Shown piece after piece: positions 1-5,383 of a stretch of 5,383 nt of DNA. The notes under the pieces were generated by a model. That model worked only from the letters and a program-made list of their open reading frames with translations. It was not told the origin of the DNA and searched no databases. The position numbers and the translations under genes were made by a program. The stretch is from Gammaproteobacteria bacterium. GTDB lineage: Bacteria > Pseudomonadota > Gammaproteobacteria > Chromatiales > Chromatiaceae. Every line of letters starts with the position of its first letter. The stretch's first letter is position 1. Location: NCBI GenBank assembly GCA_019136395.1, contig JAGVUH010000141.1:1-5383 (forward strand), in the 5' to 3' direction.

Positions 1-183
1 CGGCAGCAGGGTCGAGACGCCGTCCAGTCGCCCGAGCGCCAGCAGCGCCTGGTCGAATTTGCCGCGCAGATCCGGTGTCCAGTCGATGGGCGGACGCGGG
101 GGCAGCGGCGCGGGTACGAACGCTTGGACCCGCTCACCCACCGTCGCGATGGTCACGTATCTACCCTGGAGTTCGCGCTTCAT
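1..183 (-). CDS. Fic-family protein, N-terminal fragment (3' end outside window)
   Basis: The reverse strand from the ATG at 183 reads 61 codons without a stop to the window edge, starting MKRELQGRYVTIATVGERVQ and continuing through a proline-rich stretch (residues about 24-32) to IDWTPDLRGKFDQALLALGRLDGV. This matches the Fic_N region found in front of the catalytic domain in many bacterial Fic proteins of about 370 residues. Family knowledge: Fic enzymes transfer AMP from ATP to hydroxyl groups of target proteins, using an HPFxxGNG-type loop, and this class normally carries an inhibitory SSxIEG-like helix a few residues after the point where the window ends. Neither the catalytic loop nor the inhibitory motif is visible, so activity cannot be judged. 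The start is supported by a GAGG box (192-195) 8 nt upstream and by a sharp AT-rich region behind it. The target and pathway are unknown. Confidence 0.85.
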   Translation of the reverse strand, partial: MKRELQGRYVTIATVGERVQAFVPAPLPPRPPIDWTPDLRGKFDQALLALGRLDGVSTLLP

Positions 184-575: not shown

Positions 576-2819
576 ATGGGACGCACGGCACCGACCCCGA
601 CATCCAAGACCGGCGCTGACCAGGTCCAGCACCGGCCCCATCGCCGCGGGCTGGCCGAACGGGTCCTGATCGGCCTCCTCCTTGGGATCGCCGCCGGTGT
701 CTTCTTCGGCGAGATGGCGCACGCCCTGAAGATCGTCGGCGACGCCTTCATCATGCTGCTGCAGGTGGCGGTGATTCCCTATATCGTCGCCTCGCTGATG
801 ACGGCGCTGGGCCGGCTCACGATTCAGGATGCAAAGCAGTTGGGCCTCAAGGCCGGTGGCGTCCTGCTCGCGCTCTGGGGTATCGGTATTGTGGTCCTGC
901 TGCTCACGCCGCTTGCCTTTCCCGACTGGGCGTCGGCGTCGTTCTTCAGCACCAGTCAGGTGGAGGAAGCCAAGCCGGTCGACTTTCTGAAACTCTACAT
1001 TCCCGCGAACCCCTTCGCGTCGCTGGCAAACGCGGTGATGCCCGCCATCGTGGTCTTCAGCGCGCTGATCGGCGTTGCGCTGATCGGGGTAAGGAACAAG
1101 CAGTCCCTGCTGGAGCCCTTGGCCGCGCTGGCGGAGGCGCTGATGGCGGTGACCGGCTTCATCGCCAGGCTCGCCCCCTACGGGGTCTTCGCCCTGGCCG
1201 CCAGCGCGGCCGGCACCCTGAACCTGGAGGAACTCGAACGTCTCCAGGTCTACGCCGTCGTCTACATGACGATGGCCATCATCCTGAGCTTCTGGGTGTT
1301 GCCGGGGCTGATCACGCTCGTCACGCCGCTGCGCTACGCGGACCTGATGCGCGCCCTGCGCGGGCCGCTGATCACCGCCTTTGCGGCGGGTAGCGTGCTG
1401 ATCGTGCTACCGTTGCTGGCCGCGGCGTGCAAGACGCTGTTGGATGCGGTGCGGGAAGATGGCGACGGCCCAGCGGACCACGCGACGGTGGATGTCCTGA
1501 TACCGGTCGCGTACAACATCCCCGGACTCGGCAGCATCCTGTCCCTGACCTTCGTGCTGTTCGCGGGCTGGTACATCGGGTCCCCGGTCCCCTGGTCCGA
1601 GTATCCGCTGTTCGTCGGTGCCGGACTCGCGAGCCTATTTGGCGGCACGATCCTCACGATCCAGTTCCTGCTGGACCTGCTCAAGCTGCCGCGTGACCTG
1701 TTTCAGTTCTTCGTCACCATCGACGTCCTGGGCGCCCGCTTCAGCACGCTGGTCGCGGTGATGACAATCGGCGCGACCGCGCTGGTGGGCGTTCAAGCGC
1801 TGCGGGGCCGGGTGCGCCCGCGCCTGCGGCCCCTGCTGCGCTTCTCGGCGATCACGGCGGTACTGGTGGTCGGGGCGCTGCTCGGCATCCGCGCCTTCTA
1901 TACCTACGTCATCGTCGCCCCTTACACCAAGGATCAGGCCCTGCGGGAACTGCACCTCCTGGCGGACCCGCAGCCGGCCACGGTCCATCGGGAGATGCCG
2001 GCGACGCTCAGTGCCACGGCGACCGGGCCGGCGGATATGGCAGGGATCCGCGCGCGGGGGGTGCTGCGCGTCTGCTACGTCAACTACGATTTTCCGTCGT
2101 CATTCTTCAACGCCGACGGCCAGTTGGTCGGATTCGACATCGAACTGGTGCACCGCATGGCCCGCAGCCTGGAACTGCCGCTGGAGTTCCTGCCGGTGCA
2201 AGGCGAGGGCAAGGAGGACGCGGCGCGCCTGCTCCAAGCCGGAATGTGCGATCTCTATGCGTCGACCATGGGCATTTCGGCGCGGCGCATGGAGGCGTTT
2301 ACCATGACCGTGCCGGTATACACCTCGTCGGTCGGGTTCATCGTCCCCGATCACCTGCGCCATGCCTTCCACAGCTGGGATGCCATCCACGAACGCGGCG
2401 CGGCGCTCCGCATCGGCGTTCCCGGCAACCCGGAGTCGTTGGCCTTCGCGAGGTCCATGCTGCCGCAAGCGGTCCTGGTGCCGCTGGGTGGTCTCGGCGC
2501 CCAGCGGCAAGTGTTCGAGTCGGGGTTCCCGGAAGTCGACGCGATCGGTGACCTGTCAGAGGAGGGTGCCGCGTGGACGCTGCTCTATCCCCGTTTCACC
2601 CTGGTCGTGCCCAAGCCGACTGTCTTCACCCCGCAGGGCTTTGGCGTCGCGCGGGGCAACCAGTCGCTCGCGCAGACGCTCGACGCCTGGATCATCGAGG
2701 AGAAGGCGAAGGGAACGGTGGACGCCCTCTACCGTTACTGGATGCTGGGGGATGCGGCGCGGAGCGCCAAGCCGCCCCGCTGGTCGGTGATCCGCGACCT
2801 GCTGCACTGGGTCCCGTGA
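576..2819 (+). CDS. DAACS/SDF-type symporter fused to a family-3 periplasmic solute-binding domain
   Basis: This 747-residue inner-membrane protein has two parts. Residues about 24-410 follow the GltPh/DctA fold: TM1 26-46, TM2 52-77, TM3 92-114, TM4 148-172, TM5 180-212, TM6 224-250, re-entrant hairpin HP1 about 258-290 beginning with TAF, TM7 305-335, HP2 342-372 and TM8 375-408. A basic patch (RGRVRPRLR, 410-418) and an added helix (423-448) follow, which should place the C-terminus in the periplasm. Residues about 487-726 form a complete SBP_bac_3 domain, with the family signature GFDIELVHRMARSL (519-532), Arg571 in the TpeR-like position and Asp659 in DAIGD, the usual contacts for the carboxylate and amino groups of amino-acid ligands. 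Classical symporter residues are missing: the HP1 serines read SVL (273-275), NMDG in TM7 reads NIPGLG, and the TM8 Asp/Arg/Asn/Asp set is lost. Role inferred: capture and import, or sensing, of an amino-acid-like or organic-acid solute. The ATG at 576 is preferred to a TTG at 504; its ribosome binding site is weak. Confidence 0.88.
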   Translation: MGRTAPTPTSKTGADQVQHRPHRRGLAERVLIGLLLGIAAGVFFGEMAHALKIVGDAFIMLLQVAVIPYIVASLMTALGRLTIQDAKQLGLKAGGVLLALWGIGIVVLLLTPLAFPDWASASFFSTSQVEEAKPVDFLKLYIPANPFASLANAVMPAIVVFSALIGVALIGVRNKQSLLEPLAALAEALMAVTGFIARLAPYGVFALAASAAGTLNLEELERLQVYAVVYMTMAIILSFWVLPGLITLVTPLRYADLMRALRGPLITAFAAGSVLIVLPLLAAACKTLLDAVREDGDGPADHATVDVLIPVAYNIPGLGSILSLTFVLFAGWYIGSPVPWSEYPLFVGAGLASLFGGTILTIQFLLDLLKLPRDLFQFFVTIDVLGARFSTLVAVMTIGATALVGVQALRGRVRPRLRPLLRFSAITAVLVVGALLGIRAFYTYVIVAPYTKDQALRELHLLADPQPATVHREMPATLSATATGPADMAGIRARGVLRVCYVNYDFPSSFFNADGQLVGFDIELVHRMARSLELPLEFLPVQGEGKEDAARLLQAGMCDLYASTMGISARRMEAFTMTVPVYTSSVGFIVPDHLRHAFHSWDAIHERGAALRIGVPGNPESLAFARSMLPQAVLVPLGGLGAQRQVFESGFPEVDAIGDLSEEGAAWTLLYPRFTLVVPKPTVFTPQGFGVARGNQSLAQTLDAWIIEEKAKGTVDALYRYWMLGDAARSAKPPRWSVIRDLLHWVP

Positions 2820-2904: not shown

Positions 2905-4506
2905 ATGACCCGCCGCTCCCTGCCCATCGGCATCCAGACCTTGCGCAAGATCCGCGAGGGCGATTGTTACTATGTCGACAAGACCGGTTTCGCCCTGCGG
3001 CTGATCGCGGAGGGCACGCATTACTTTCTCTCCCGCCCGCGGCGCTTCGGCAAGTCGCTGTTCCTCGATACCCTGGCGGAGCTGTTCGCGGGTAATGAGG
3101 CCCTGTTCCTGGGGCTGGAGGCGGAGCACCGCTGGGACTGGTCGCGGCGCTTTCCGGTGATCCGGCTGAGCTTCGGCGGTGGGGTGGTGCGGCAGCCGGC
3201 CGAGCTCGAGGTCAAGATCCGCGAGCAGTTGGCCATCAGTCAGGAGGCACTGGGAATTTCGTGCGAGCAACCGTCGCTGGCGGGCTGCTTCGCGGAGTTG
3301 ATCCGCAAGGCCCACGCCGCCACCGGCGAGCGCGTGGTGGTGCTGGTGGACGAATACGACAAGCCCATCCTGGACAACATCACCGCGCCGGCTACCGCCC
3401 GGGAGATGCGCGATGGCCTGCGTAACCTCTACTCGGTGATCAAGGACTCTGACGCCCACATCCGCTTCGCCTTCCTCACCGGGGTCTCCAAGTTCAGTAA
3501 GGTCAGCCTCTTCTCCGGGTTGAACAATCTCAAGGACATCACCGTGGATGCGCGTTACTCGGCCATCTGCGGCTACACCGAGACCGATCTGGACCGGGTC
3601 TTCGCCCCGGAGCTGGCGGGGCTGGATCGGGATCAGATCCGCGCCTGGTACAACGGCTATAACTGGACCGGCGAGGCAGTCTACAACCCCTTCGACGTAC
3701 TGCTGCTGTTAGACGCCCGTCAGTTTCGCCCCTGGTGGTTCGAGACCGCGACCCCGACCTTCCTGATCGAGGTGCTTACGCAACGCGGCTATTTCACCCC
3801 GGACCTGGCCCACCGCCAGACCAGCCTAGCGCTGCTGTCGAGCTTCGATGTCGAGCATATCGACAGCGATGCCCTGTTGTTTCAGACCGGCTATCTGACC
3901 ATCCATCAGGTGGAGGAGCCCTGGCTCGGCCAGTGGGTCTATACCCTGGGCTATCCCAACCGGGAGGTGGAGAGCAGCCTCAACGCGGCCTTGCTGCCGG
4001 CCCTGGGGGTGGATGCCCAGCGCGCCTTCAGCCAGCGCATCGCCCTGGTGCAACGTCTGCAAGCGGTGGATTTCGCCGGCATCCAGGCGCTGATCGGCGC
4101 CCTGTTCGACGGCATCCCCGCGGATTGGTACCGCAACAATCCCATCGCCCGTTACGAGGGCTACTACGCCAGCGTCTTTTACAGCCACCTCGCCGCCCTG
4201 GGGCTGGACCTGGTGCCGGAGGATGCCAGCCACCAGGGCCGCCTGGACCTGCGCCTGCGCTTCAACGACCGGATCTGGTTGTTCGAGTTCAAGGTGGTGG
4301 AGCTGGCCCCGGAGGGGGCGGCGCTACGGCAGATCAAGGACAAGGGTTACGCCGACAAATACCGCGCCGAGGGGCTGCCGATCCATCTCATTGGCATCGA
4401 GTTCAGCCGCGAGCGGTGCTCTCTGGTGGGGTTTGAGGTGGAGACCCTGGACCGCGAACCCACTGCCGCCCGATCTTCTCCGCCAAGGCGTAAGCCTCCT
4501 GCTTGA
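2905..4506 (+). CDS. AAA-ATPase-like protein with C-terminal PD-(D/E)XK nuclease-like domain
   Basis: The 533-residue product has the layout of the AAA-ATPase_like (PF09820) plus DUF1703/PDDEXK_9 (PF08011) family. The N-terminus carries the family hallmark LPIGIQTLRKIREG, then YYVDKTGFAL (22-31) and the P-loop variant RPRRFGKS (44-51). Walker B is VVVLVDEYDKPI (144-155, acidic pair Asp149-Glu150), and LTGVSKFSKVSLFSGLNNLK (191-210) fits the sensor region. The C-terminal domain has Asp448 in GRLDLRL and Glu461-Phe-Lys463 in FEFK, giving a D...ExK nuclease-type core, followed by the usual QIKDKGYADKY helix (476-486). All core residues are present, so the gene looks intact. The family is often present in many copies per genome; its role is not settled, with mobile or defence functions proposed. 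It lies 85 bp after the transporter gene on the same strand and converges with the Anbu unit. The last 15 or so residues (basic, Pro-rich) look like read-through into foreign flanking DNA. Confidence 0.9.
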   Translation: MTRRSLPIGIQTLRKIREGDCYYVDKTGFALRLIAEGTHYFLSRPRRFGKSLFLDTLAELFAGNEALFLGLEAEHRWDWSRRFPVIRLSFGGGVVRQPAELEVKIREQLAISQEALGISCEQPSLAGCFAELIRKAHAATGERVVVLVDEYDKPILDNITAPATAREMRDGLRNLYSVIKDSDAHIRFAFLTGVSKFSKVSLFSGLNNLKDITVDARYSAICGYTETDLDRVFAPELAGLDRDQIRAWYNGYNWTGEAVYNPFDVLLLLDARQFRPWWFETATPTFLIEVLTQRGYFTPDLAHRQTSLALLSSFDVEHIDSDALLFQTGYLTIHQVEEPWLGQWVYTLGYPNREVESSLNAALLPALGVDAQRAFSQRIALVQRLQAVDFAGIQALIGALFDGIPADWYRNNPIARYEGYYASVFYSHLAALGLDLVPEDASHQGRLDLRLRFNDRIWLFEFKVVELAPEGAALRQIKDKGYADKYRAEGLPIHLIGIEFSRERCSLVGFEVETLDREPTAARSSPPRRKPPA

Positions 4507-4696: not shown

Positions 4697-4701
4697 CCTC
4701 T
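4697..4701 (-). promoter_or_regulatory. Ribosome binding site of the small membrane protein, overlapping the Anbu stop
   Basis: On the minus strand TAGAGGCATAACCATG joins the Anbu stop (TAG, 4702-4700) to the next start (4689). AGAGG with 7 nt spacing is a good Shine-Dalgarno site, and its overlap with the stop suggests translational coupling within one mRNA. Confidence 0.6.
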
Positions 4702-5383
4702 AAGGCTTCTCCGGTGGTCTGGCCAGGATGTCCAGGCGGAAGGGCGGAAGGGCGGCGATGGCGAGGCGGATATTCTCCGCCCAGGAATTACGCAGGGCGC
4801 GCAGGTAGGGATCATCCTCGTCGAGGCGGCGGTAACGGTCCAGCACCAGGGAGTCCCGCTGGTACAGCAGCAGCTCCACCGGCGGGCCGACGGTGACGTT
4901 GCTCTTCATGGTGGAATCCATGGAGACCAGGGCGCAGCGGGCGGCGTCCTCAAGCGAGGTCTGGCGTTCGACGATGCGGTCGAGGATCGGCTTGCCGTAT
5001 TTGGCCTCGCCGATCTGCAGGAAGGGGGTCGCCGCGGAGGTGGTGATGTGGTTGCCCTCCGGGTAGATCATGTGCAGCCCCGGCGGCTCGCCGGCGATCT
5101 GGCCGCCGAGGATGAAGGTGGCGGCGGGGTTGAAGCCGGCGTTGGGGCCGTCCTTGTCCACGTAGCGTTTCTGGCGCTGGCGACTGACCTCGCCGAGGTA
5201 ATCGGCCACCTCATTGAGATAGCGCGCATGGGCCAGGGGGCAGTCGGGATCGTCCTGGAATTCATGGCGCAACTGGGCCACCACCGCCTGGGAGGTGGCC
5301 AGGTTGCCCGCCGTCAGGATCACGAACTGCCGCTCCCCGGCAATGCCCAGGGTGTGCATCTTGCCGTAGCTGCTGACCTGGTC
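4700..5383 (-). CDS. Anbu-type proteasome-like peptidase, N-terminus outside window
   Basis: The minus strand is open from the window edge to the TAG at 4702-4700, giving 227 residues beginning DQVSSYGKMHTLG. The sequence follows the Anbu (COG3484, predicted proteasome-type protease) family: the FNPAATFILGGQIAGEPPGL strand pair, the MIYPEGNHI turn, TPFLQIGEAKYGKPILDRI and the ALVSMDSTMKSNVTVGPPVE stretch are typical. The family is about 240-260 residues, so only about 20-30 are missing, including the N-terminal Thr/Ser nucleophile that follows the initiator Met; catalytic competence cannot be seen here. Family knowledge: Anbu is a cytoplasmic relative of HslV and proteasome beta subunits, forms ring or helical assemblies, and often sits in an operon with ATP-grasp, alpha-E and transglutaminase-like genes, which would be expected beyond the right edge. 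The small membrane gene follows after 10 bp, probably in the same operon. Confidence 0.9.
   Translation of the reverse strand, partial: DQVSSYGKMHTLGIAGERQFVILTAGNLATSQAVVAQLRHEFQDDPDCPLAHARYLNEVADYLGEVSRQRQKRYVDKDGPNAGFNPAATFILGGQIAGEPPGLHMIYPEGNHITTSAATPFLQIGEAKYGKPILDRIVERQTSLEDAARCALVSMDSTMKSNVTVGPPVELLLYQRDSLVLDRYRRLDEDDPYLRALRNSWAENIRLAIAALPPFRLDILARPPEKP

Follow-up and report, generated by a model that had tools for sequence, protein, structure and literature searches.

In TRAP transporters and tripartite tricarboxylate transporters (TTT) the solute-binding protein (SBP) is usually a separate protein, and SBP_bac_3 proteins generally serve ABC importers as soluble proteins or lipoproteins. 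Until TAXI-GltS was described in 2025, TRAP and TTT were the sole SBP-linked families of secondary transporters known, according to that report (PMC12344293), in which GltS is described as a Na+/glutamate symporter and TRAP as an elevator. The same report holds that the elevator mechanism may permit the use of an SBP, that further classes would test this idea, and that functional coupling of TAXI and GltS still needs experiment. Here we analyse a window of DNA, namely the whole stretch of 5,383 nucleotides of contig JAGVUH010000141.1 from a gammaproteobacterium, in which a single gene joins an SDF module, of the DAACS/SLC1 transporter fold, to an SBP_bac_3 domain. We read its product, with moderate confidence, as a single-gene, binding-protein-dependent elevator carrier. 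A preliminary description of the window had listed ABC, TRAP and TTT as the systems that depend on an SBP, and this list omits TAXI-GltS, for which such dependence is likewise proposed (PMC12344293).

An SDF module and a solute-binding protein in one chain

The gene runs from ATG to TGA over 747 codons with zero internal stops, although its exact start is not proven, since the frame is open upstream to a TTG at position 504. In Pfam, SDF (PF00375) matched residues 28-404 with 175.3 bits (cut-off 27.9) and SBP_bac_3 (PF00497) matched residues 497-723 with 68.6 bits (cut-off 26.4); nothing besides these two matched at E≤0.001, and all NCBIfam matches were far under their cut-offs. The uninterrupted frame and the two scores above cut-off confirm the fusion as first described, and the SBP_bac_3 signature GFDIELVHRMARSL indeed starts at Gly519, the position given for it then. 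The parts of the protein, including its hairpins (HP) and transmembrane helices (TM), are as follows.

576-2819, forward strand: fused 747-residue protein, with SDF-like membrane module, TM9 and SBP_bac_3 receptor (open reading frame, Pfam, homologs).
657-1787, forward strand: SDF (PF00375) module, residues 28-404, with scaffold, HP1, TM7, HP2 and TM8 (Pfam).
1359-1439, forward strand: HP1 hairpin, about residues 262-288, with tip AAGS versus canonical (S/A)SS (alignment).
1503-1532, forward strand: TM7 break, residues 310-319, PVAYNIPGLG replacing canonical N-M/L-D-G (alignment).
1602-1691, forward strand: HP2 region, about residues 343-372, with tip about six residues shorter than in canonical SDFs (alignment).
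1737-1739, forward strand: Arg388 in TM8, a family-specific basic residue (aligned columns).
1824-1916, forward strand: TM9, residues 417-447, after a basic loop, presumably placing the C-terminal half of the protein in the periplasm.
2037-2744, forward strand: SBP_bac_3 receptor domain, residues 488-723 (Pfam, alignment).
2772-2813, forward strand: conserved C-terminal tail PPRWSVIRDLLHWV, residues 733-746 (lowest entropy of the regions measured).

The membrane half has the HP1, broken TM7, HP2 and TM8 of the SLC1 elevator fold, and shares the scaffold segments NPF and P-Y-G-V-F-A-L with solved SLC1 proteins. The SBP_bac_3 half, in addition to its profile score, has the two-lobe SBP fold, and the AncCDT proteins are its closest solved folds and sequences, with AncCDT-1 as the best match. 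One domain occupies most rows of the VIA-align structure list, and the missing of other folds there carries no meaning. Sequence or modelling shows that the SDF fold, the ninth TM helix and the SBP domain all belong to one chain.

The fusion recurs in a patchy but widespread family

A search of 5.8 billion proteins returned 1433 relatives of the window protein at E≤0.001 among 7999 scored candidates, canonical SDFs possibly being among them. Both domains were found in 118 of the best 120, at identities down to 51%, the exceptions being P0056 (443 residues, SBP only) and P0082 (579 residues, SDF only), from one contig each. With a Botrimarina protein as query, both domains were present in 120/120 listed homologs, whose aligned members share 36-40% identity with the window protein. 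The domain-architecture check suggested in the preliminary description thus finds both Pfam domains in one chain in nearly all listed relatives, and this rules out two objections raised there: a sequencing error or chance joining of adjacent genes, by the recurrence of the fusion in 238 further sequences, and the possibility that the two parts are always separate proteins in homologs. Since these lists consist of best hits and the searches admit proteins of 0.55-1.75 times the query length, a separate SBP gene cannot show up in them.

Fifty-one pattern matches in species genomes included 12 loci that encode relatives of the fused protein, with record titles such as Candidatus Thiosymbion, Thiotrichales, Desulfosarcina, Alphaproteobacteria, Pseudomonadales and Botrimarina, as well as a delta proteobacterium record whose isolate name is Myxococcota. 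A family profile (E≤1e-60) matched 17/146 genomes drawn from the family of the Thiosymbion genome, 10/369 from the class of the Thiotrichales genome, 15/294 from the phylum of the Botrimarina genome and 18/282 from the phylum of the delta proteobacterium; a wider phylum draw around the Thiosymbion genome gave a near full-length match above 450 bits in 6/398 genomes. These frequencies are rough, because each draw includes its own centre genome, the draws partly overlap, some matches are cut by contig ends and just two to seven candidates were scored per genome. On such rough figures, the fused SDF-SBP family is patchy but widespread.

The architecture is already catalogued, in that both Pfam domains are pre-assigned and names exist at JGI and NCBI, namely 'Na+/H+-dicarboxylate symporter/ABC-type amino acid transport substrate-binding protein', 'proton glutamate symport protein', 'cation:dicarboxylate symporter family transporter' and 'cyclohexadienyl dehydratase precursor'. 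The architecture is thus on record, with guessed functions that conflict. Among the papers listed by searches of the open-licence PMC literature, none was on an SDF-SBP fusion, and this large and widespread family is apparently unstudied.

Among individual members, the fused Posidoniimonas proteins P0123 and P0124 are those to which NCBI gives the name 'Cyclohexadienyl dehydratase precursor', which probably misleads. Several SDF-SBP genes occur in a gammaproteobacterial genome (G005; loci L011 and L012); one of them seems to be interrupted, giving frames of 440 and 90 residues, and another carries a masked run.

Most sodium and cargo residues of the SDF module are replaced

The SDF module was aligned for 48 fused loci, four split loci (see below) and 38 canonical SDFs, the latter being hits of the same searches and not a random draw; an earlier, smaller comparison set 18 fused loci and the window protein against 28 canonical SDFs. 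For 37 of the 38 canonical rows, a profile search of short flanks detected no SBP gene, a check that in part covered open reading frames of at least 200 residues, and one canonical row (L118) lies 4.3 kb from a fused gene. Six columns were scored, which we take to be N310, D312, D394, R397, N401 and D405 in GltPh numbering, allowing S at N310, S or N at D312, and N at D405. All six residues are kept in 37 canonical rows and five in the remaining one. Among the fused rows, none of the six is kept in 44, one in three (L002, L133, L137) and two in one (L138).

Column by column, N310 reads P46 S1 A1 in fused and N36 S2 in canonical rows, and D312 has no Asp in fused rows (two have Ser) and reads D33 S3 N2 in canonical ones. 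D394 is kept in 1/48 fused and 38/38 canonical rows, R397 in 1/48 and 37/38, N401 in 0/48 and 38/38, and D405 (as D or N) in 0/48 and 38/38. On direct reading, the window protein lacks the D394/R397/N401/D405 set of TM8, and its TM7 has PVAYNIPGLG instead of the N-(M/L)-D-G Na+ motif; motif loss was judged by aligned columns rather than by the loose text pattern N/S-M/L-D/N/S-G, which is found somewhere in 5/48 fused rows. In TM3, 42/48 fused rows have Trp where 33/38 canonical rows have Thr or Ser, and in the smaller comparison HP2 is about six residues shorter than canonical. TM8 has also acquired a basic residue, Arg388 in the window protein, which lies two positions ahead of the canonical Arg; its column reads R43 K2 W3 in the fused rows and Met in 38/38 canonical ones. 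PF00375 scores in five genomes were 393-416 bits for four canonical and 144-204 bits for nine diverged proteins, with one partial match at 39.6 bits.

On this evidence the SDF fold and scaffold persist, and the ion and cargo site is rebuilt or lost. With most Na+ and cargo residues substituted, symport driven by Na+ should not be taken for granted. The module is homologous to the SDF family, yet outside the Na+-coupled DAACS/SLC1 group, because it fails the residues that define this group. The preliminary idea of a DAACS-like, binding-protein-dependent carrier therefore needs qualifying: the fusion is real, widespread and topologically sensible, but its SDF half, with these residues replaced, is no ordinary DAACS symporter.

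A ninth helix, a conserved core and a variable pocket

Canonical and split rows (n=42) have at most 49 residues after the TM8 Asp405 column, with a median of 29. After TM8 the window protein has a basic loop, and then a ninth hydrophobic helix at residues 417-447. We aligned 161 sequences (68.7 effective), comprising the window protein, 48 loci, 72 proteins of the first search and every third protein of the Botrimarina-query list. The TM9 stretch is hydrophobic in 161/161 of them, where it precedes the linker region (codons 450-487) suspected in the preliminary description as the site of a false join, and in 98.8% the loop ahead of TM9 carries more positive charge than the stretch that follows the helix. 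SDF termini are cytoplasmic, so TM9 would place the SBP domain in the periplasm. The ring of three receptors around each trimer, envisaged in the preliminary description, would rest solely on the conserved fold.

Mean entropy over the same sequences was 1.06 bits for the C-terminal tail, 2.20 for the SBP and 2.64 for the linker/TM9 stretch, and 1.39 for the SDF core (56 positions) and 2.71 for the predicted SBP pocket (19 positions), both of these position lists being our own choice. Random SBP positions reach the pocket value of 2.71 in 0.5% of 5000 draws. A conserved SDF core together with a variable predicted pocket supports the SBP as the part that sets specificity, and we read it as suggestive of one conserved machine serving many ligands. 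Arg571 of the window protein, which is R in 0.57 of the weighted family, was mapped through the AncCDT alignment to a presumed contact, which we take to be the carboxylate-binding Arg of amino-acid SBPs.

Split SDF and SBP gene pairs

The Thiotrichales genome G002 carries, about 7 kb away from its fused gene, a diverged SDF gene next to a stand-alone SBP_bac_3 gene. The two genes share 4 bp, and the SBP gene has a signal-peptide-like start as judged by eye.

590-2709 of locus L018 (L018/L148), reverse strand: split SDF/SBP pair, Thiotrichales genome G002.

With the SDF of this pair as query, 12/274 genomes matched. The four best-scoring matches (G002, G612, G712 and G606; loci L018/L148, L149, L150 and L151) have an adjacent SBP gene on the same strand, with the SDF first in one and the SBP first in three, and for the eight weaker matches no SBP gene was found within short flanks. 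A follow-up for more split pairs in 1, 95 and 94 genomes gave zero new loci. The four split SDFs, of which L151 is cut by a contig end, are without the N-M/L-D-G motif and keep one to three of the six residues; by this measure they are less degenerate than the fused SDFs. A quick tree of 68 of the 90 rows (22 were omitted, mostly close copies) put the split SDFs on their own branch (SH-aLRT 99), recovered the fused clade (SH-aLRT 100) and placed the canonical rows on one side (SH-aLRT 79). Split SBPs score 23-60 bits against the fused-SBP profile and SBPs elsewhere up to about 79 bits against the whole-protein profile, and because these profiles are different yardsticks they do not demonstrate a special kinship of fused and split SBPs. 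That SDF and SBP are fused in one group and encoded as close neighbours in a second is good evidence that they work together.

Proposed mechanism and alternatives

Such a carrier would most likely operate as follows. The SBP domain would catch a small ligand in the periplasm, close on it, dock on its own SDF module via conserved surfaces and the conserved C-terminal tail, and hand the ligand to the elevator-like SDF transport domain, so that specificity would be set mainly by the SBP. Coupling would not use the three known Na+ sites: a proton or another ion could act via new residues, with Arg388 as a candidate anion contact, or uptake could be uncoupled and pulled by metabolism, as in some DAACS proteins according to excerpts of PMC12668577. 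Docking, hand-over and energy source are the steps that we infer.

Several points weigh against this carrier. One that moves varied ligands should itself vary, and a conserved core would fit a receptor or a channel equally well; together with the variable pocket, whose positions are our own mapping from presumed contacts and the alignment to AncCDT proteins, it may leave room for an SDF module that never handles ligand. The missing coupling residues could mean that transport has been lost, while Ser277 of HP1 and Thr398 of TM8 are retained in 23/48 and 26/48 fused rows, and L138 is the sole fused row to retain both D394 and R397. An alternative topology that groups the split rows with two canonical ones passes the test (p-AU 0.727, its likelihood even higher), so that the tree would fit one or two origins of the fused and split groups.

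A receptor on a dead transporter scaffold, whose SDF module would only anchor or sense, and in which ligand binding to the SBP would alter the SDF and signal to an unknown partner, would agree with the loss of most aligned Na+ and cargo residues and with a conserved core beside a variable pocket. We hold it to be rather unlikely, given that no output domain lies in the cytoplasm (about 25 residues precede the first helix, and no other domain matches), that no partner gene recurs, and that HP1, the TM7 break, HP2 and TM8 are kept and conserved, which would be superfluous in a mere anchor. SBP_bac_3 shares its superfamily with the ligand-binding domain of ionotropic glutamate receptors, and the SBP domain might instead open a path for anions or solutes through the SDF module, making the protein a ligand-gated channel. 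A chloride-conducting intermediate of an SLC1-fold protein (title of PDB 6wyk), PF10613 pre-assigned to 4/120 relatives in the Botrimarina-query list, a weak, sub-cut-off Lig_chan-Glu_bd match in one split SBP (25.7 bits vs 30), and again the conserved core with variable ligand pocket speak for such a channel, which we find unlikely as exchangers and channels occur near the gene inconsistently, in one to three loci each.

The NCBI name given in Posidoniimonas, and the AncCDT proteins as closest solved folds and sequences, would suit a membrane-anchored enzyme with the SBP-like domain as cyclohexadienyl dehydratase. This is very improbable: the best match, AncCDT-1, showed no enzymatic activity in excerpts of PMC7683729, and residue 663, to which we map the Glu of the active AncCDT-3 that we take to be the general acid Glu173 (PMC7683729), is Glu in the window protein, whereas the weighted frequency of Glu there is just 0.34 across the family. 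Pfam and annotation names, and the Ser277 and Thr398 kept in about half of the fused rows, could also be taken to indicate an ordinary DAACS symporter, coupled to Na+ or H+ and equipped with a helper domain, whose apparent residue losses would reflect misalignment or be compensated nearby; we give this little credence, since the replaced motifs are readable in the rows, the alignment is anchored in HP1, TM7 and TM8, and the PF00375 scores fall into two groups, canonical high and diverged low. A broader and still doubtful possibility is that a clade of the SLC1 fold gave up its ion and cargo site to become the membrane half of a receptor-gated device, in which the SBP would open or drive a pathway independent of the Na+ sites, whether as an SBP-specified carrier or as a ligand-gated channel; we know of neither a fully SBP-specified carrier nor a ligand-gated channel of such kind on this fold.

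Gene neighbourhood

No neighbour family occurs in more than 7/48 loci, bar the gene itself and overlapping reading frames, and a fixed partner seems dispensable for the fused gene. This ceiling also holds for any ABC ATPase or permease family beside the SBP, the neighbours not having been screened singly for ABC genes. Ion exchanger, SulP, MscS and MgtE genes each occur in the vicinity of the fused gene in one to three loci. Tannase/feruloyl-esterase and MarC genes are found nearby in L002, L003 and L006, and DUF3124 in L002 and L003. These genes might suggest that the subgroup takes aromatic acids as ligands, yet three and two loci, respectively, are too few to build on as a substrate clue. 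The window itself contains three other features.

2905-4503, forward strand: AAA-ATPase_like and PDDEXK_9 protein, directly downstream of the fused gene.
4700-5359, reverse strand: partial frame of 219 residues, with zero Pfam or NCBIfam matches, presumably resembling proteasome-type proteases.
1-183, reverse strand: start of a protein (61 residues), which we take to resemble a Fic-family N-terminus.

In L007, a 97% identical relative, a reading frame that starts similarly occupies the position of the AAA-ATPase_like gene.

Comparison with known transport systems

The DAACS/SLC1 proteins (GltPh, GltTk, EAAT3, ASCT2; PF00375) are homologous in sequence and fold, with HP1, broken TM7, HP2 and TM8 kept, whereas the fused family has most Na+ and cargo residues replaced and a shorter HP2 tip, and adds TM9 and a C-terminal SBP. 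Since the SLC1 fold is among the best-understood elevators, the family, of which at least 238 relatives are listed and some come from named strains (Botrimarina, Posidoniimonas, Bremerella, Methylomarinovum), offers a natural experiment on how this fold behaves after losing most of these residues. Uncoupled DAACS proteins, such as an ancestral uncoupled aspartate transporter (PMC12668577; PDB 9bgy), share with it the SDF fold and have Na+-independent transport; the ancestral protein, however, binds L-aspartate and its TM7 is described with an NMD motif, and the excerpts of PMC12668577 do not mention an SBP. Compared with SBP_bac_3 amino-acid binders (AncCDT-1, AncQR, 9e2b), the SBP of the fused family is tethered to an SDF and has its own conserved tail.

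SBP-dependent secondary transport is what the family would have in common with TRAP (excerpts of PMC5812351) and TTT, whose membrane families are other than SDF; the window protein gave no Pfam match at E≤0.001 to DctM/DctQ, TctA/TctB or DctP/TAXI/TctC, nor to a TAXI SBP or a GltS membrane protein. Closest in design is TAXI-GltS, in which, according to PMC12344293, an SBP is tied to a usually solitary carrier through adjacent genes and fusions, and an elevator is proposed. There, the SBP is of the TAXI type and N-terminal, the carrier is GltS, and 14 fusions are counted in about 10,000 GltS entries (PMC12344293), whereas the listed homologs of the SDF clade are nearly all fused. The SDF-SBP family is thus a candidate for a further class of SBP-dependent secondary transporter, built on the SLC1 fold.
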